Assembly: GCF_000003815.2 (NCBI RefSeq)
Contig: NC_049991.1
Span: 19,894,674-19,958,673 of the forward strand
DNA from: Branchiostoma floridae
Lineage: Eukaryota; Chordata; Leptocardii; Amphioxiformes; Branchiostomatidae
Reading direction: 5' to 3'
DNA length: 64,000 nt
Part shown: positions 3,100 to 63,794 of the stretch, in pieces
Numbering within the stretch: position 1 is the first letter of the stretch
How the letters are laid out: each line of letters starts with the position of its first letter
Translations under genes and position numbers: made by a program
Notes under the pieces: generated by a model
Database searches by the model: none
Seen by the model: the letters and a program-made list of their open reading frames with translations, nothing else
What the model was told of the DNA's origin: nothing

Positions 3100-5110
3100 G
3101 CAAAGATGTCTGTTGGAGGCCTGCAAGACCGGTCAACGAACCAGCTCTTGTGACCTTGACCATGACCTTGCCGTTGCGCTGAACTTGGGTTACATCATCC
3201 CACCGTCCGTCTGTCTGGCACATGTGACCGTTTAAACCGCAGATAACCAGAGACCTTAGGAGGTAACGCCAGTCTGGTAAGGTCTGGGCAACCGTAGAAT
3301 CATTCTCAGACTTCCAATTCCAGGTTTTCAAGCAATCAGGTCAATCAGGCATCTTTGAGATTTTCAACACGTCGAAATGTTACATGACACAGAGTTTACA
3401 GGTATCACTATAGATGACTATTTTTGTTTGAACCTTTATTTTATTCATTAGAAGCTCAAATCGGCCTGCAGGCCGCTTTTCATTGAGGTCATGAAGGAGG
3501 TAAGGGGTCAGATAGAATATGACAGCTCTTGTGAGTGTTACCACGACGTTGCCCTTCACATTGAACTTGGTTTACGTAATCTCATCGCCATCCGTCCGTC
3601 TGTCTGTCTGCCACATGTGATCGTTTGACCCCCTGACAATCTTATACCTTGAGAAGCGACGCCAGTCTGGAAGGGTCTTGACCGCCATAGGATTATTATA
3701 TGAATGATATCAACGGTTTCGACGTTCATATTTATAAACATAGATTATAACTCCTGATACAGGCATCAGTATAACCGATTGAGAAAGGTCTACAAGTTTG
3801 ACATTATAAGCGACATTGACAATAACCCTAGCTCCAAAATCAAAGGTGCCTGCTGAAAGCTTGCAAGGCCATCTTTTGACCCTTACCATGACGTTATCCT
3901 TCTCCTTGAACTTGAGTTACATCATCTGTCTGCCACATGTGACCGTTTACCTCTCTGATAACCTTGAGATGGAACACAAGCCTGGAAAGGTCTAGGTCAC
4001 TGAAGGATCATTTTAGGATGATATTGAATAATTCCTCTTCCTGATTTTTAAGCATTCAGATTTGGCTTCAAGACGTTCAAATTTTCCAAGGTATACTTTT
4101 TGTAGGACTCTTGAAAGTACGTAAATTTGACAATATCATCGACATCGACATTATAGCTTTAGTGCATGCTGTAATTTCTGGAAGGTCGGTTACAAGACTA
4201 GGCTGTCGGCAAGGAAGATGTTGTGATTGATGATTCACCATGACGTTTTTTCTTCGCCTTAAACTTGACTTAGTTGCATCATCTGCCTGGATCTGCCACA
4301 TGTGACCGTTTAACTCTCCGATAACCTTGAGCTTCGTCGTAGGATCATTGTCGTATGGTATTGAATTTTTCCACATTCAAATCTTTAAACATCCAAACTT
4401 CGCTTCAAGACGACGAAATGTTTAATGACACAGAGTTTTCAGGTATTCCCTTTCCTAACAATGGAAAGTCTGCAATAAAATATCAGGAACATTACCAATA
4501 AACTTAGTGCACGCTGTCATTGCCTGGGGTTGCAATGTCAGACTGTCGGCAATGAAGATGTTGTGATTGATGATTCACTATGACGTTTTTTCTTCGCCTT
4601 AAACTTGACTTAGTTACATCATCTGCCTGGATCTGCCACATGTGACCGTTTATCTCTCCGATAACCTTAACCCTTGAGATGTAACGCCAGTTTGGAAAGG
4701 TTCTGGACAGCCGTGGGATCATTTTAGGATGATATCAAAGATTACTGATTTTCAAACATTGAAATATTATTTTATCAAGACAACGAAATGTTTCATGACA
4801 GGTATACAGGTGTAAGTTTCCAGGTATACGTTTTGCTGACTATGGAAAGTCTACAACTTCAACATCGCCAACAACCTTAGCTTTAAATCAAAGGTGTTTG
4901 CTTGGGACTTGCAAGACCAGGCAGTCGACAAACCAGCTTTAACTAGTGACCTGTAGCATGACGTTGTCCTTCGCATTGAACTTGAACTTGGCTTGCATCA
5001 TCTCACCGCAGTCTGTCCGTCTGTTTGCCACATGTCACCGTTTACCCCCCAGCTCAGCCTGATACCTTAATGCCGCCAGTCTGGAAAGTTCCGGCCGCTG
5101 TAAGATGATC
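3100..5110. repeat. Tandem array, six diverged copies of a 320-390 bp unit
   Basis: The anchor CACATGTGACCGTTT (or a close variant) recurs at 3219, 3612, 3934, 4297, 4637 and 5029, spacings 393, 322, 363, 340 and 392. Each unit also has a 'CGCCAGTCTGGAAAGG'-type block and a 'CGACGAAATGTTTCATGACA'-type block in the same order. The copies differ by many substitutions and indels, so the array is old. No coding potential seen. Confidence 0.8.
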
Positions 5111-5230
5111 ATTTAGATGGTGTGCGTTTCTGAATAAAGAGACTCTTCACCACAAACCATGGTTTGTTTACACCGACTGTCACCTTCCTCAGGGTCGGTG
5201 TACATAAAGTAAGGATTGTGAAAAGCGAGT

Positions 5231-5542
5231 CAGTGACGTATCAACGTGATGAAGCTATTCACGGATGTATACGTTTGGTATCAGTGAATACCCTGTTCTA
5301 AACACAGTGTCAGTGGACATAGGTTACCCCGCATCAGTGACGTATCAACCTGATGAAGCTATTCACGGATATATACGTTTGGTATCAGTGAATACCCTGT
5401 TCTAAACACAGTGTCAGTGGACATAGGTTACCCCGCGTCAGTGACGTATCAACCTGATGAAGCTATTCACGGATGTATACGTTTGGTATCAGTGAATACC
5501 CTGTTTTAAACACAGTGTCCGTGGACATAGGTTACCCCGCGG
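5231..5542. repeat. Tandem repeat, three copies of 104 bp
   Basis: Units begin CAGTGACGTATCAAC at 5231, 5335 and 5439, exactly 104 bases apart and nearly identical. Each ends with an ATAGGTTACCCCGC block that is shared with the ends of the TAACGCTAGTTCACC-type MITEs, so the array probably amplified from part of one of those. Confidence 0.9.
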
Positions 5543-5939: not shown

Positions 5940-8900
5940 GACTGGTGTTCAGGGCTTTCGGGAAGAGCCTGATGGAGCAGCGGAAGTTTGCGATGGTGGT
6001 TTTTCGGGACATACTCTCAAGACCCCGCACGGAGTCCATGATGATCCGGGAGGCCCAAACTCTCGCCTCAACTCTCGCGCAGAAGGCGGGCCGACCCACG
6101 AGAGTCCACGATAACATCGGGTTATCCCTGCTGAACGTCACGTGTTCGCTGTGCTTCGGCAGGAGGTTCGAGACGAGCGATCCAAGGTTCATTTTCTAAA
6201 CAACATAAGTATATATCAACATGTATGCACAATATATATCAACATGCATGCACAATGAATTACAAAAGTTGTGAATATCGTTAAAGAGGTTCATCAGTCA
6301 CGTATGTATACAGTTACTACGGTGAATGTTTTAAAGGTAAGGACCTAGGTACATACCTCAAAACAGGGAGGTTAAAACCTCCTTGCTCAAAATTTTCGAT
6401 GTCTGACAGCACATCTTGGTCACGGAGAATGACCTAGTGTCAATCTCGCGAGAGAACACGAGACTAGGTCAGGCTTGCGTAGATCATCTTCCCCCTTCCC
6501 CGCCTCCTTGCGGAGTAGTGGTAGGTATGACTTGGGCAGCTCCCAATCCTCATTTCCGTTCAGCTTCGCCCCCTAGTAGATGGATGTGGATGGCCTCCTT
6601 AACCTTACAGTGTGCTTTGCATGCTAAAGAATTGTTCAACCATTGTAGAATATTTCACACCGGTACTTTCTTACCATTCTCTACGATACCAGGTTCTGGG
6701 GGTTCGTCCATTCGTTGGACATGTTCGCCAAAAACGCCGCCTGCTGTCAACTCTTCAACATCTGCCCCTCCCTCGCCAGGGTTCCCAAAATCAACACGCC
6801 GGCAGTCAGGGTTCAAACCGGCATCAGAGAGGTATGTTCATCACTAAAGATAAGGGCACAACCCGCCGTACGCTACAAATACGTGCTATCTACGTGCCAA
6901 AACGTGGGCAATCTTTTGGGATCCGTAAGTGGTACCTACCGCCTCCGTACGAACCCGTAGGGAATCAGACGGACTTTAGAGCTCACAGACACGCCGAACT
7001 TTACGTGTGCAGGCAAAACTTTGTGTGCCATCGGGCTGCGGATTCACCCCCACCCGTACGTGCCAGTACGGGCGACGCGCCTGCCCTGTACAGCCTGAAC
7101 GTTTCAAAGTCAGAAGTACGTGGTGGACGTGACCTCCAAAAAAAAAAAAAAAAACGTACGGACAAATCGCACGTACGGCGAGTTGTGCCCTTAGCTTAAG
7201 AAGTTTATCTTTTTTTTGGTAGCGCTTCTACGTTTGTAGATAATTCAGGTTGATAATTACTCTTATAGTAAAGTATAGACAATGGGGGATACAAACTGAG
7301 CAACGTTTGGGACGGCATTCTCGCTTCTGCAGCGCCACCTACATCGGCTATACGTAGCAGCAAGAAGCAGATCCAGGCATCCAATCTAACCCTGATGATG
7401 GTGCCTGGTTGATATTTAGTATGTATGTAGGTCCTGAGGAGACCTTGAAATGGTTTTCTGGCCTCCCTTGCAGGTTGTTACGGTGCTGCTGTGGAACTTC
7501 CGGCTTTGAAAGCTCGAGTTGAGTAATTCTAAGTGGTAGGTAGCTATTAGGACATAGAGTAAATGTGGTAGAGTTGGACCCCTTATCGGCCTTTTTGGAA
7601 CAGCAGGTGCTGGTTTTCTTTCAGACTTTGATAGAGAATAACTCAAGAGGGGATTGAGGGATGGATATGATATTTTGTAGGTGAAATCTCGGATCTCCGA
7701 CTTCTTTTTTTTCTAATATGCTAAAAACAAACGAATAAACCGCTGCAGGTGAAGGAATTTGTCCGGTCGGAGACTGAAGGTCACAAGGTCAAGTTCGACA
7801 GGGAGAACATCCGGGACATTATAGATGCCTTCGTTCTGGAGATGGAGTCGCGCAGGCGCAGTGGCCGGGATCTTGGCAGTTTCACCGAAAGGGAGATGGA
7901 GCAGGTAATATAAAACGAATCAATCAATCAATCAATCGATGGATTGGTCAATTAACCAGCCAATCAATTAGTTAATCAAACGTTTTTTTCTTTTTTCTAG
8001 GGTTACTATTTAATCTACTCACTCCTTTATAAAAGATGCAGACCACTAAGAACTAAATTAAAAACTAAATTAATGCTTAATGTTTCAAATCTACTTTACT
8101 TAGATCTATAAGAAACATATAATATCGTGAATGTCTGCCTTTTTCCGTTCTTCCCAAGCTCTCTTTCGTCCAGCAAAGAGGTTTACAAAATAGATATGCA
8201 TTAATTTTCAATATCTTTAAAGATGACGTGGCCCCCCTTGCTCCCAGCACTAATAGTCGTCTGGATGGTGTTCCTCTTAACATCATACCCGAACATCCAG
8301 GCCCGCATTGCAAGTCACTACACGCGTTACTCAAGGTACGCTACTAAAGGCTTTAACATGTCCTCCTTCCTACAGGTGATATTTGACCTGTTCTTCACGG
8401 GAGCAGAGACCAGCTCGACGTGCCTGCGGTGGGCGGTGTTCCTCATGGCGGTGTACCCTGACGTCCAGGTCCGCATGGCTAGTCACTACTAAAGATTCTA
8501 GCGTTTCTTCCTCCCTACAGGTTATATTTGACCTGTTCTTCACGGGAGCCGAGACCAGCTCGACGTGCCTGCGGTGGGCCGTGTTCCTCATGGCGGTGTA
8601 CCCCGACGTCCAGGCCCGCATCCACCGCGAGCTCGACACGGTGCTGGGGCCAGACGGGGAGGTCACCCTGGACAAGCGCGCCGCACTGCCGTTCCTGGAC
8701 GCCACCATTAGCGAGGTGTATTATCTTAATTCATTTTTCGCCACTATGTGATAGTTGGTTAAGGTGGTATCTCACTGCCCTTGGGGTACCAGTGCAGCAC
8801 TGCGGGGTTCGTTCACTGCGGCACTGTTTTGTTATTTTCTCGAATTTTTCATAATTGAGATATTGTGTAATACGTAAAAGTATGGCTTAGAAGACAACAA

Positions 8901-10381
8901 AAATACAGAAAACGTGACTCTCTCCCTCCTCCCTTGCCAGGTGCTGCGGTTCCGTCCGGCGGCGCCTTTCATGTACAGGTGTGCCACCAAGGACTCCAAG
9001 CTACGGGATTACTTCATACCTGCCGACACGCAGGTAGGAGATAGTCAAGCACATTTCAGTCTGGGTTCGAATTCACTAGCAATTAAGTCACAGAAGCCCA
9101 AAATATACATTTTGGTATGAAAATTGTCTAGGAATGTCATAAAATCGATTCTGAGAAGGAATCGAAATATCCCCGTATATACACTTATACATACACAATA
9201 TGTGACAATACCCTAATAGAATATGTTCAACCACATGGGTGCCAAATTTCGGGAAAGACATTATATTTATAAGTTTTGATCCAACGAAAGGAGAATGCTC
9301 CGTACGATTTTTTTTTGACCGTCGCTCTTGGTCCTGGTCCTCTGTGATGTTCCAGACAGCCTGAACACGTGTCTAGCCGAATTCGAACCTTGTTCGACGG
9401 TGTTCGATCTGCCGCATTTCGAACTGAACCCGTATTCTATTTGGGGTCATCCGTGGTCATTGCAGATTTTCACAGCCCTTTCCCCAGTGCCTTGCATCAG
9501 ACAAACAAAAATGTTTTTTTTTCCACATATATAAGCATTTTCTTTGCCGAACGTGCCTAGTAACGGGAAAGAATAACCTAGCAACCGACCGCCGTGGAAA
9601 TCCTGTCTTTAATTTTCTGCTTATGATTTTTCTGCCACATCGCAGGTGTTGGTGAACCTGTGGTCTATTCACATGGACCCGAAGCACTGGCAGAATCCGG
9701 ACCAGTTCAACCCGGACCGGTTTCTGAATTCGGAAGGGACCGTGAAAATTCCGGAAGCGTTCAAGGCATTCGGACTTGGTAAGAGTATCGGATTTGCTGT
9801 GCGATGGGCTTACGACAATCTGAAACAAACAAACCTACATTTCCTCCACAAAACGTTTTTCCGATTAAACCACGTGCACTCAGACCAATCTAACGTTATA
9901 CTGTACATGTTGCTTTCAATCTGTTACTTGATAGTTACCTGCACATGGACTAGACATCTGACCCAAAGTTCCTAAACTATACATCAAGTTTAATCTATGT
10001 CCTTCTCAAGAAGGTTTGTCTTTATGTTGTTTCAGTTGAGTTAATAATGTGGTTTCAAACTGTAATATTCATTGAAAGTTGAATGTCCATTTGGAACCAT
10101 AGGCTACACGTGGTAACGAATATGCGGCGATATATTGGCATTGTTTAGGTCAAATATCTATAATGATTTATTTCAAAACTGTCTTCCGTTCCACCCTAGG
10201 CCGCCGACTGTGCTTTGGTGAACAGATGGCCCGAATGGAGATGTTCCTGTTCTTCGCTATCCTCATGCAGCACTTCACCTTCAAGCTGCCAGAGGGCGCT
10301 CCCGTACCGAACACGATTGGCGTGTTCGCTCTGACGCTCTCACCACCTCCTCACGAGCTCTGCATTTTCAAGCGACACTGA
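5940..10381 (+). CDS. CYP2-like: Cytochrome P450, CYP2-clan type, 5'-partial (seven exons)
   Basis: Haem-thiolate monooxygenase, expected to be an ER-membrane enzyme that oxidises lipophilic substrates with electrons from P450 reductase. Exons, all AG/GT bounded and in frame: 5940-6186, 6693-6831, 7749-7904, 8521-8715, 8941-9033, 9646-9778, 10200-10381 (stop TGA 10379-10381). They give 380 residues against roughly 490-500 for the family, so about 110-120 N-terminal residues (membrane anchor, proline hinge) are missing; I found no such exon in 1-5939, so it probably lies upstream of the window. Visible motifs: I-helix GAETSST (exon at 8521), ExxR as EVLR across the 8715/8941 junction, NPDRF, and the haem loop FGLGRRLCFG across 9778/10200 with its Cys ligand. 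The final exon has 182 coding bases, the usual size of the last CYP2 exon. Oddity: the C-helix WxxxR position reads LMEQR, so the tryptophan is replaced. CYP2 clan is secure; the subfamily is not. Confidence 0.92.
6851..7193. mobile_element. CpG-rich inverted-repeat element in the P450 intron
   Basis: Terminal inverted repeats TAAGGGCACAACCCGCCGTA (left) and the same with one change (right, inverted). It starts 19 bases past the donor of the exon ending at 6831. The interior is rich in ACGTGC/CGTACG words and a poly-A run. No clear target duplication, so superfamily is not assigned. Confidence 0.75.
8240..8520 (+). repeat. Two partial tandem copies of the P450 I-helix exon
   Basis: Upstream of the real exon (8521-8715) are two incomplete copies. 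The nearer one (8377-8478 plus about 42 bases of intron-like sequence ending in CTACAG at 8520) repeats the first 102 exon bases including its own acceptor, then breaks into sequence reading ASHY and a stop. The farther one (about 8240-8350) is older and recognisable only from its end (YPNIQARIASHY). Both copies switch to the same intron-like tail, so the repeat unit is about 144 bp. Comparing the nearer copy with the real exon, four of five differences are at synonymous third positions. Only the 8521 copy continues into the exon 3' part, so it is the one taken as coding. Confidence 0.85.
8763..8910. repeat. Half copy of the 2483-2733 palindromic element
   Basis: Shares GGTATCTCACTGCCCTTGGG and the GCACTGCGGGGTTCGTTCAC block with the left arm of the element at 2483-2733. 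It ends about 30 bases before the acceptor of the P450 exon at 8941. Confidence 0.75.
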
Positions 10382-11879
10382 AAGAGTAAAAGAGGAATGG
10401 AACTGAGTTTGTTTTAATTACAAGTATATGATTTTTTTGCAAAAGAATATGTTGATCCCTCAACATTTTATGTCTATATATATTTTCTTCTCGTGTTATC
10501 ACTACACTCTTCCGCAACTGTTACCGTAACAGTACTATCGCACGCCTTTCCTCTGGGGGTCAGAGCTTCCAGATATTCCTTGGTGTATGGTTCGGACAAG
10601 AGAGGGCAGACAAGAAGGTGTTTCATACATGATATAGACGTGTTAAGGAGGCTAAGAAAATGTTAAGAGGCTATATCACAATACCAGAGAAGAGAAGAAA
10701 AGAGAGACGAAAAAGGAGATGCTTTTCAAAGAGAAAGTTAAGCTATAATAGGGATATGCGATATCAATGCAACTGGATATACATATCCATAGTCTTGTTT
10801 AGGTAAATATATGTATATTTATATATGTCATGTACTATTATTATTTCATCAATATGAATTTATCACGATCGATATAAAAGAACGGGACCTATGACCCACT
10901 GCTGACGTCACATGTCCGTATAAGGTCACGTACAGGGCATGGAGTGGAGTTAGAATATAGGGGATGAAAAAGACCGAAAATTTAGTGGGGAATTCGGTAA
11001 GTCGTAGTTTTGTTGTGTCGTATCAAGATTGTTTGAAGCATGTTTTATACGTATCATAGTCATGCACTGTATTAAGGACATATACACATGTATTAGTATT
11101 CTTGTGCAGGTAAGAAATAACGCGTTATTCGTTAAATAACGCTTTAGGACTGGTGTATTATCGATTTTGCCTTACGATACAACCTTTCGTCATTCATATA
11201 TTTATATATGTTAAGGTTCAACGTATATCGAGATATATGTACGATATTATTCTTTTACTATAAAACATATATATGTACGTTATATCCTTTATATTCATAC
11301 TTGACGAAACGAGAATTTCAGCCGTCGTCTTGAAAAACTTGAAAGTTTGATGTACTTTGCACAGTAAACCGTGCATTATGGGATTATAAAATTACCTACA
11401 CAAGAATTGTACACAGGGAAACACGCGTTACACGTTTGATGGTGAGAAGTACTAGTAGTGATTTGTGACAAGTGCAGCGATTAATTATATTGTTATTTGC
11501 TGTGCGATTTTATGGTAAAATGACTTGAGAGAATGAAAAGTCGAAACATAATTTTTGTTGTATTTAGATTGCCGAAATTGACCTGATGTTTTTAAAATCG
11601 CCAAGCAGATATATCGTTTAAGCTTACTTCGTTTGCGTTTTCTATGTTTGTTTTTTCAAGATCACGAAACGGAAAGAATTTTAAATTGATATATTTTCTG
11701 TCTGGAAACATCAAAACAACAATGTCAATTAAATAAAAAAGGCGAAGAAAAATCTCTTGTTCTAGTTGTATATTAAGGTTGAAATAGAACTCTTACCTAG
11801 CCTTTATGATACCACAGTTGTCATGCTCACCTGTAAGGTAGATATCTCCTGTCGTCATCTTCTGCTTACAAAACACCCC

Positions 11880-11892
11880 GTTACCTAGCAAC
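11880..11892 (+). promoter_or_regulatory. X-box-like RFX motif, distal
   Basis: GTTACCTAGCAAC fits GTNRCC-N(0-3)-RGYAAC exactly with a one-base spacer. It is about 1.6 kb upstream of the dynein start codon and 1.5 kb downstream of the P450 stop. A weaker relative (ATAACCTAGCAAC) occurs at about 9577-9589 inside the P450. Regulatory role for the dynein gene is inference. Confidence 0.4.
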
Positions 11893-13034
11893 AAGCCGTC
11901 AGGTGAGAAGGCGCCGCGGGGGTCGGCTGGGAAGATCCCACTCACCAAGTGGGTCACTCACGGTCACACCACTGAACTTTACTCTCAAAGCAGAGGTTTG
12001 GTTCCGGCTGTTTTTGAGGCGTTTTTGTCACGCTTGCTATTTTGTACCGTTTTCCACGGGGACATAAAAAAGGTACAAAATAGAAAGGCCGACAAAAGAA
12101 CCTAAAAACTTCAGCTTGGAGAGTAATCAAACCTGTCTACGTAAAGTTTACACAGCTTTCAAGGTTTTCTGGGTGACTAGAAGTCATCAGAGTTTAACTT
12201 TAACTGTTCCAACGCAGAAATCGGACTTCGAGCTGTGGATTGCTCTCTCATTGATAAAAACTGGTATCGGACGGTCAAAGACTTAAGTAAGTCCCAGTGC
12301 TGAAAATTACAGTGCAACTTGGCTTAAGAAGTGACAAAGACGAGTGACTCAGCAAAGACATCTTAAGACCCGGGTCTTTTGTTCCTTGTGCCCACCGGTC
12401 AGCTTCCATTTCAGCCAAGGAGGCAGCGTCCTGCAGGGCAAAAAGGTGGTCTTCTTTTTCAAATGAGTCATCTCGATTACGGTTATCTTATGTCCAGCTA
12501 GTTAAGATATACCTTACACAAACGCCCTGCCCATACCCCGCGGTGTAGCCAAACTAGCGAACTGTTAGATATCTGTTATCTATTGGTGTCAAATCGATAA
12601 TTTCAAATGATGCCCGAATTACAATCAATTTGATTAATTACGTTAACATTACCAAAAACTGTGACAAAAGTCATTGTCCGTGCATTGTATAAGTCCCCTT
12701 GCTAGTGACCTTTTCGGCTCAGCTTTCGCCCTCCCTTTGTTAACCAATCAACCACTTCGTGTCACAGCAAACCAGCCCAGCAGGAAAGGTTTTGTCTTGT
12801 CCCGCTATCTGAGCCGACCTGGCAAAACCAAATCCCGTCGTCTGAAATGCTATCACCCCGCGAAAGGACCACCAAAAACTTAGTAATCTGGTCAGAACTA
12901 TGCAAATGTCATTAACTGAGATCCTACAGTGCCCTTCCACGGTTTATCTTGAAATAAATGGCGCAGATAATGCAATAATACGTCTTTGTTTGAACGTTGT
13001 CTGCGGTATTGTGTTTGAGAATTCTTTTGTATAC

Positions 13035-13048
13035 GACACCATGGCAAC
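13035..13048 (+). promoter_or_regulatory. X-box-like RFX motif near the dynein start
   Basis: GACACCATGGCAAC has the full right half-site GGCAAC, the central AT and five of six bases of the left half (GTNRCC expected; A replaces T at position 2). It lies about 456 bp upstream of the dynein ATG. X-boxes bound by RFX factors are established regulators of ciliary genes, so the place and gene type fit. It is a 14-base match with one mismatch; function is inferred. Confidence 0.5.
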
Positions 13049-13503
13049 GGACGAGTTCATTCTTCCTAGGGTTCAGGAACTCAGAAATAAACAATTAAAT
13101 AAACCTGTCCGTACCACTATCAATAAAGTATTGAATCTTTACCACAGCAATAGACATTTTACATTGGTTTCCATTCAAGAATTGACTGATTTAAGTCTTG
13201 TTATGTTAACGAAGTAAATTCTAAACCTCCCTGTCCCCGCTCCCCAGTTCTAGAGTCCAGAAGCCGGTCTCGCCATCTTGGGTTTCCCGTGTCAGAAGGA
13301 GTCGTGTAGTGGGAAGATCAGATTTGCCTGGACTCGGTCCAAACCATCAACTTTCCGGACCGGGCAAGACTTGAGGATACATTCTAAAGGACTACCGACG
13401 ATGTAGACATATTTATTGGTTGCTCAAGTTAACAAGACAACAACATTTCCATCCTAAACAGACTTTTGGGACGTTACCTTGAAAGACCCGAGTTCGAACC
13501 AAG

Positions 13504-63504
<50,001 letters not shown>

Positions 63505-63578
63505 GTGAGGGGATAGTTTATTATTCAATATTTGATCTCCGTGGACGGGATATAGTTTATCATTATGATATTTCATGT

Positions 63579-63655
63579 CCATGGAGGTTCTGTCTGTGGT
63601 GGCCGTACAGGTCAAGTCTATCCAGGACGCCATCAGGGACAAGAAGAAAAGGTAC
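63579..63655 (+). repeat. Partial duplicate of dynein exon 40 3' part with donor
   Basis: [20 protein letters not shown] and KKKR plus a GTACGG donor repeat the last 70 or so bases of exon 40 (ending 63504). Two differences within the matched codons, both synonymous. Confidence 0.9.
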
Positions 63656-63794
63656 GGGCTTGTTGTTACTCTGTGATGGAGGGTGACCTCCGACAATATT
63701 GTTGTTGTCCAATGTGATGAGTGTTCACATCATTCTGTAGCTCTATGCTCCTTTTGCCGCATGCGTATACTATGTAGTTTTGCATATTGTCTGC

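Follow-up and report, generated by a model that had tools for sequence, protein, structure and literature searches.

The DNA described here is a stretch of 64,000 nucleotides from Branchiostoma floridae (NC_049991.1, positions 19,894,674 to 19,958,673 of the forward strand), referred to below as the window, and all coordinates are counted from its first base, with negative values lying before it. It contains a P450 exon and the beginning of a DNAH9/17-like dynein heavy-chain gene, and our subject is a set of partial copies of exon edges that lie in the introns beside the exons they resemble. The original prediction, made from the letters of the window, had described such copies at twelve exons (one P450 and eleven dynein) and had found their differences from the real exons to be mostly silent, an overall observation that we confirm for the dynein gene. 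It had also pointed to a precedent at an amphioxus Adh locus, the so-called mirages, and this precedent is correct (PMC3087553).

Exon-edge copies in the dynein gene

The gene model was built ab initio by codon scoring and splice-site scoring, and it places one dynein heavy-chain gene from at least 18.4 kb in the window to 122.5 kb, about 58 kb past the window end. An open frame at about 14.2 kb may be an earlier dynein exon. Eleven called exons, nine of them mirage copies, were discarded before counting, which left 82. The protein joined from seven consecutive real exons matches human DNAH17 with an E value of 1.7e-171 and DNAH9 with 3.1e-170 over a region that extends from the end of the N-terminal-2 domain to AAA1. 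The matches span the length of the joined protein, and the sole gap against DNAH17 is one residue, which is there because a split codon was omitted when the exons were joined; the borders and frames of those seven exons are therefore sound. Pfam searches matched five of the seven dynein exons submitted to a dynein family, one of these under the curated cut-off, and the remaining dynein exons rest on the gene model and Pfam. By sequence match the gene belongs to the DNAH9/11/17 group, which we take to be the axonemal outer-arm dynein beta heavy chain. The real exons and their copies in the window are listed below; acceptor-type copies carry the acceptor edge of an exon and donor-type copies the donor edge.

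8521..8715, +, real P450 exon (Pfam p450 match and ab initio exon)
8341..8476, +, copy upstream of the P450 exon, made up of its acceptor flank and 101 exon bases; 4 synonymous, 1 nonsynonymous difference
23272..23461, +, real dynein exon (gene model)
22600..22761, +, acceptor-type copy 1 of 23272-23461, upstream
22843..22965, +, acceptor-type copy 2 of 23272-23461, upstream
23048..23144, +, acceptor-type copy 3 of 23272-23461, upstream
24538..24749, +, real dynein exon (gene model)
24776..25209, +, donor-type copies of the end of 24538-24749, three in tandem with a unit of about 146 bases
30283..30427, +, real dynein exon (gene model)
30141..30222, +, acceptor-type copy upstream of 30283-30427; 4 synonymous, 0 nonsynonymous; 43-base unrelated spacer
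34547..34791, +, real dynein exon (gene model)
35004..35054, +, donor-type copy downstream of 34547-34791
38024..38193, +, real dynein exon (gene model)
38197..38242, +, tandem donor-type copy downstream of 38024-38193; 4 synonymous, 0 nonsynonymous; hand-scored, outside the 57 copies counted below
43096..43238, +, real dynein exon (gene model)
42953..43033, +, acceptor-type copy upstream of 43096-43238; 98.8% identical; unrelated spacer
45905..46027, +, real dynein exon (gene model; DHC_N2 match below Pfam's curated cut-off)
46122..46211, +, donor-type copy downstream of 45905-46027; 9 synonymous, 2 nonsynonymous
63359..63504, +, real dynein exon, AAA_6 (gene model, protein and Pfam match)
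63574..63664, +, donor-type copy downstream of 63359-63504; 3 synonymous, 2 nonsynonymous
26133..26167, +, short copy, probable, donor-type, of 25449-25582 (scores no higher than the background maximum)
27656..27689, +, short copy, probable, donor-type, of 27339-27506 (scores within background)

Copies were searched for with each exon and 60 flanking bases as the query, and matches on the same strand within 2 kb that scored at least 30 were retained. This gave 57 partial copies beside 23 of the 82 modelled dynein exons, with up to seven copies per exon; a 24th copy-bearing exon, 38024-38193, has a 47-base tandem that the script missed. Within the window, the best chance match at over 3 kb distance scores 27, and matches more than 5 kb distant score at most 27 except for three (83, 63 and 46), which were kept out of the 57. 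Two of these three repeat the acceptor edge of exon 94538-94684 in inverted orientation, and the third consists mainly of intron, with 22 exon bases. The inverted copies lie downstream of the window at 99968-100250, 5.3-5.6 kb from the exon, and hold 38 and 56 exon bases, the second differing, by eye, at four third positions only.

Of the twelve exons originally proposed as copy-bearers, nine are solid: the P450 exon 8521-8715 and the dynein exons 23272-23461 and 24538-24749 (three copies each), 30283-30427, 34547-34791, 38024-38193, 43096-43238, 45905-46027 and 63359-63504. Exons 25449-25582 and 27339-27506 are probable only, with copies of 34-35 bases whose scores of 27 and 24 are at background level. 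Exon 54471-54649 was rejected, its match at about 54364 being gapped and without an exon boundary, with one synonymous and seven nonsynonymous differences. Of the 57 copies, 56 extend beyond exactly one exon boundary and the remaining one is a 38-base internal piece. Acceptors are carried by 19 copies, all upstream of their exon, with the AG intact in 19/19, and donors by 37, all downstream, with the GT intact in 28/37. Not one of the 57 is a whole-exon copy, the retained share of the exon being 13-66%, and their exonic parts contain seven stop-making changes and 22 frameshifting indels. The side on which a copy lies would follow from geometry if the copies arose by tandem duplication; the lack of whole-exon copies is not explained by geometry and suggests selection against complete pseudo-exons.

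At 85% identity or above, the repeats of the dynein gene form eight tandem clusters and 14 spaced pairs, and some of the arrays are true head-to-tail tandems. For the 12 single-copy pairs with a comparable spacer, the spacer aligns at chance level with the stretch that a tandem duplication predicts (z -1.98 to 1.40), and at 43096 it is unrelated although the copy is nearly identical to its exon; these pairs are therefore not plain aged tandem duplications. The spaced pairs prefer exons, since 12/14 touch one, compared with a random mean of 4.2 and maximum of 10 (0/5000 trials equal), and 5/8 of the tandem clusters are on exons. Clusters taken together overlap exons in 23/32 cases at 75% identity against 14.4 under random shifts (6/2000), in 21/28 at 80% against 12.0 (0/2000) and in 18/22 at 85% against 8.8 (0/2000), and on these counts we rejected the idea that tandem repeats are simply scattered through the gene. 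Just two spaced pairs lack exon sequence; one of them consists of 95%-identical intronic pieces, 88929-88992 and 89290-89353, downstream of the window, which flank exon 88998-89160 on both sides. Other repeats were seen in introns of the dynein gene. The spacer at 46037-46117, between exon 45905-46027 and its copy, is filled by a TAG-repeat microsatellite; a repeat of about 325 bases at 45182-45506 is related at 85-89% identity to at least 39 others, spread over many chromosomes, and pieces of it recur inverted at 42008-42106 and 44005-44104.

Codon positions and site classes of the differences

All 57 copies together differ from their exons in the ratio 69:27:227 at codon positions 1:2:3, with 234 synonymous and 86 nonsynonymous differences, and the intron spectrum gives a neutral expectation of 26% synonymous in these exon parts. 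The original prediction counted 34 synonymous differences among 42 by hand; our recount of the eight solid dynein exons (12 copies) gave 49 synonymous and 17 nonsynonymous differences, 20:0:46 by codon position. Because several copies of one exon share changes, the differences are not independent events. With one copy taken for each of the 23 exons, third-position changes outnumber the first and second together in 17 of the 21 exons that have differences, and the divergence is 26/1020 at zero-fold sites, 52/257 at four-fold sites and 69/583 at intron sites away from splice signals. The corresponding values for the 12 single-copy exons are 12/442, 26/103 and 31/163. As a control we used ten near-repeat pairs free of exons, hand-picked, with phases sorted within each pair and two of them outside the dynein gene; their differences fall 53:35:21 over the phases, compared with 51.5:35.5:22.0 expected if even. 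One control consists of three 104-base tandem units, 96-97% identical, at 5229-5541 near the P450 exons. We rejected the idea that CpG hypermutation is chiefly responsible for the third-position bias, since no more than 19/85 third-position differences are at CpG sites of the real exon. Indels follow the same division in single copies, with three in 706 exonic bases (4.2/kb) against eight in 304 bases of intron tail (26/kb); the contrast is weaker in array copies (25 in 3381 exonic bases against 28 in 1954 intronic).

The 11 exons with two or more copies allow the variants to be sorted by how many units hold them. Variants common to several units are 30 synonymous to 7 nonsynonymous and those found in the real exon only are 19 to 3, whereas changes private to one copy are 43 to 41, or 21:14:50 by codon position. 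The older variation is thus constrained and the copy-private variation is relaxed, yet the synonymous share of the latter is above the neutral 26%. In the array of exon 73657-73929, inspected by eye, the four distal copies have in common a block of variants, mostly synonymous, which is largely missing from the real exon and the nearest copy, and the nearest copy looks mosaic. Among arrays with three or more copies, 5/8 show four-gamete conflicts at informative sites, and the three arrays with at least five such sites have 11/15, 50/120 and 10/21 conflicting pairs. The shared and private division and the exon preference of the spaced pairs are absent from the original prediction, as is the weak signature outside the dynein gene described below.

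Origin of the copies

We fitted a model in which the copy is neutral for a time x, the real exon takes almost only silent changes and the starting alleles differ by pi, with pooled sites treated as independent. With pi set to 0, the best fit predicts 60 zero-fold and 27 four-fold differences against the 26 and 52 observed (lnL -32.7). The lnL is -23.6 at pi 0.0397, -16.9 at 0.08 and -13.2 at the free value of 0.138; when four-fold sites are given a mutation rate 1.5 times that of introns, it is -10.2 at pi 0.08 against -8.8 for the free fit. Single-copy exons fit a pi of 0.25, or 0.20 with the 1.5-fold factor, and the constrained divergence required is 0.11-0.25 with introns in the fit and up to 0.30 without them. 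Duplication followed by neutral decay is rejected for the dynein gene, and an allele origin is needed. The original prediction held that the copies are not ageing as dead sequence, and the site-class fit agrees for this gene; elsewhere the signature is weak. It put forward two ideas, that the copies derive from functional alleles that had diverged and that they are exchanged again and again with the real exon; both fit better than decay and are not fully separable.

The reading that we favour, with a confidence slightly better than even, is that the copies are mirages founded or overwritten by functional alleles through short-tract gene conversion, and then decaying. A mirage copy is an exon edge that lies in the adjoining intron and carries a single splice site together with a short piece of intron. 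Copies with one splice site would be harmless, a pseudo-exon without the second site not being recognised, and whole-exon copies would be purged by selection. The exon part would be founded from functional alleles or later replaced by them through short-tract gene conversion or unequal exchange: the single exon edge of a chromosome that has no copy could pair with either position on a chromosome that has two, and so refill the copy, which would decay neutrally between exchanges. Conversion would swap the allele of the neighbouring real exon too, which would in effect make that exon one more allele drawn from the population. Gene conversion in B. floridae is reported at 96.1 paternal events in each offspring, across 73.0 Mb open to analysis, with a mean tract of 99 bp (PMC12500494), and mutation at 5.89e-9 per base per generation (PMC12862219). 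By our arithmetic, conversion therefore touches a site thousands of times oftener than mutation does, and so would uncouple an exon from a copy 100 bases off far faster than mutation marks either. Exchange would account for the constrained old and relaxed private variation, for fresh exon parts beside unrelated spacers and for the exon preference.

Several observations weigh against this reading. The required divergence of 0.11-0.25 exceeds the published synonymous diversity of 0.0397 (PMC12862219) and is not fully explained, although inbreeding in the laboratory may have put that value below the wild one (PMC12862219). Bacterial artificial chromosome haplotypes of one immune-type locus mismatch at 7.6% of aligned bases (PMC2632668), which shrinks the gap, though not completely for the single-copy exons; ordinary allelic diversity may be too small a source of the divergence. 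Exchange alone does not account for the value of 0.25 reached by four-fold divergence in single-copy exons. The inverted copies also require an insertion step, and they indicate that copies can form in this way without tandem structure. No conflicting sites were found in 3/8 arrays, and a site-order recombination test found no significant clustering of conflicts along the unit (p 0.06, 0.13 and 0.24), so that recurrent mutation could also produce them. Finally, six copy-exon pairs outside the dynein gene give 14:7:23 by codon position, with 19 synonymous and 24 nonsynonymous differences. These pairs come from unvalidated gene models (exons 8521, -75013, -43554 with two copies, -19162 and one on C5) and comprise two pairs at P450 exons, two that involve a single exon in an unnamed gene, one in an EGF-type gene and one on C5. 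Their counts are close to plain decay, or to weaker constraint there, and the general claim therefore rests on one gene.

The nearest competitor, which we consider possible but doubtful, is that each copy was inserted recently from a divergent allele as a template during repair of an intron break and was never exchanged again, its signature being inherited at birth. The unrelated spacers, insertion-like rather than tandem in 12/12 single-copy pairs tested, are what such insertion would give, as are the two inverted acceptor-edge copies of exon 94538-94684 and the relaxed copy-private changes; it leaves unexplained the exon preference of the spaced pairs (12/14) and the conflicting sites in 5/8 arrays, and its donors must be more divergent than published synonymous diversity by a factor of about 3 to 6. 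A second functional dynein paralogue as the source would fit the four-fold divergence of 0.2 and the low zero-fold divergence, but the copies match intron tails and adjoin their own exon, and no second exon locus was found among the 40 of 3061 genome candidates that were scored, 39/40 being a transposon-like repeat; we give this idea the least credence of all. Selection on the copies themselves, for example as translated alternative exon ends, would be compatible with the low zero-fold to four-fold ratio and the intact splice dinucleotides (AG 19/19, GT 28/37), and is made highly improbable by the loss of some exon from every copy, by the seven stop-making changes and 22 frameshifting indels, and by the relaxed private changes.

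The collapse of two haplotypes into one assembly, which the original prediction offered as its alternative, is disfavoured by our results. The differences do look allelic, the genome is expected to be very heterozygous, and one globin mirage was aberrantly assembled in an older draft (PMC3087553). Against an artefact that placed alleles side by side, whole-exon copies are absent (0/57), an exon has as many as seven copies, the flanks and the spacers of 12 pairs are unrelated, the two runs of N in the window (19921-20020 and 58425-59239) adjoin no copy, and re-sequencing is reported to back similar repeats in the lancelet PGBD5 gene (PMC3902484); we judge it very unlikely. Simple tandem duplication with neutral decay of the copy is no more credible than selection on the copies, for while eight clusters are head-to-tail tandems and the synonymous share outside the dynein gene (19/43) is near its prediction, it calls for 60 zero-fold and 27 four-fold differences in the dynein gene, where 26 and 52 are found, and the spacers are unrelated.

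We think it unlikely, though worth stating, that the copies act as a seed bank, in which exon edges leave the coding position, rest in harmless mirage copies and return by unequal exchange if still intact. If this were true, lineages alternating between live and dormant states would keep synonymous variation much older than ordinary alleles, and this would account for the several-fold excess of the constrained divergence over published synonymous diversity. Synonymous diversity would then be raised only in that portion of an exon which is also present as a copy.

The pairs outside the dynein gene remained after several matches had been dropped by eye: EGF-repeat exons in the region from -39.6 to -18.2 kb (domain relatives matching each other), eight rows from the P450 array at -3.8 kb (26-28 exon bases per copy, none with more than 1 synonymous or nonsynonymous change), two rows for the P450 copy at 8376, one reciprocal and one with 3 synonymous and 9 nonsynonymous changes, a match without a boundary at -70.4 kb (1:3), and 155077 and 157099, which are reciprocal whole-exon matches, about 70% identical, read as repeated domains and hence as real exons. 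The 50-kb block on C5, with 12,861 bases of N, has 14 predicted exons and one copy. Three arrays were seen outside the dynein gene. The array at -4718 to -3312 advances in 50-base steps, reaches a P450 exon acceptor and contains eight copies of the first 26-28 bases of that exon; a degenerate array of units of about 350-380 bases at about 60% identity occupies 3142-5116; and tandem units of about 1 kb, 88-92% identical, are found past the dynein gene at 148138-151255.

Relation to known mirages

Tandem repeats evolve concertedly by gene conversion and unequal crossing-over. The conflicting sites among units in 5/8 arrays resemble what such exchange would give; the difference here is that one unit is a live, selected exon and the truncated units bear the mark of that selection. 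Mirages are known as minisatellite-like duplications of exon boundaries in the amphioxus Adh3 and globin genes (PMC3087553), and also in troponin C and PGBD5 (PMC3087553, PMC3902484). The Adh3 and globin mirages are, like the copies described here, fragments of intron-exon boundaries, either 5' or 3', that lie next to the real exon, with units of about 10-160 bp and 81-100% identity in one globin gene; those of Adh3 were found in two species and show somatic instability (PMC3087553). Their haplotypes differ in copy number, splicing is reportedly undisturbed and the edge unit escapes homogenisation (PMC3087553). Unlike them, the present copies affect 23/82 exons of one gene, many as single spaced copies with a non-homologous spacer, and a coding-constraint signature was measured. 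In lancelet PGBD5, imperfect repeats of 60 and 108 bp likewise cross splice sites, and re-sequencing spoke against an assembly error; that case is one gene with tandem repeats, and no codon-position analysis appears in the part of the report available to us (PMC3902484). Within the accessible text of the open-licence literature searched, we found no codon-position analysis of mirages, nor did we meet the coding-constraint signature, the density in one gene or the exon preference of spaced pairs; mirages themselves were already known.

In the available parts of these reports, mirages have been treated as a source of instability and as raw material for new introns. If their exon parts regularly exchange with functional alleles, mirages would keep a natural record of earlier exon alleles and of conversion within coding sequence, and they may serve as a reservoir that prolongs the life of exon variants. 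The exon preference of the spaced pairs hints at a copying process that requires homology between divergent haplotypes.

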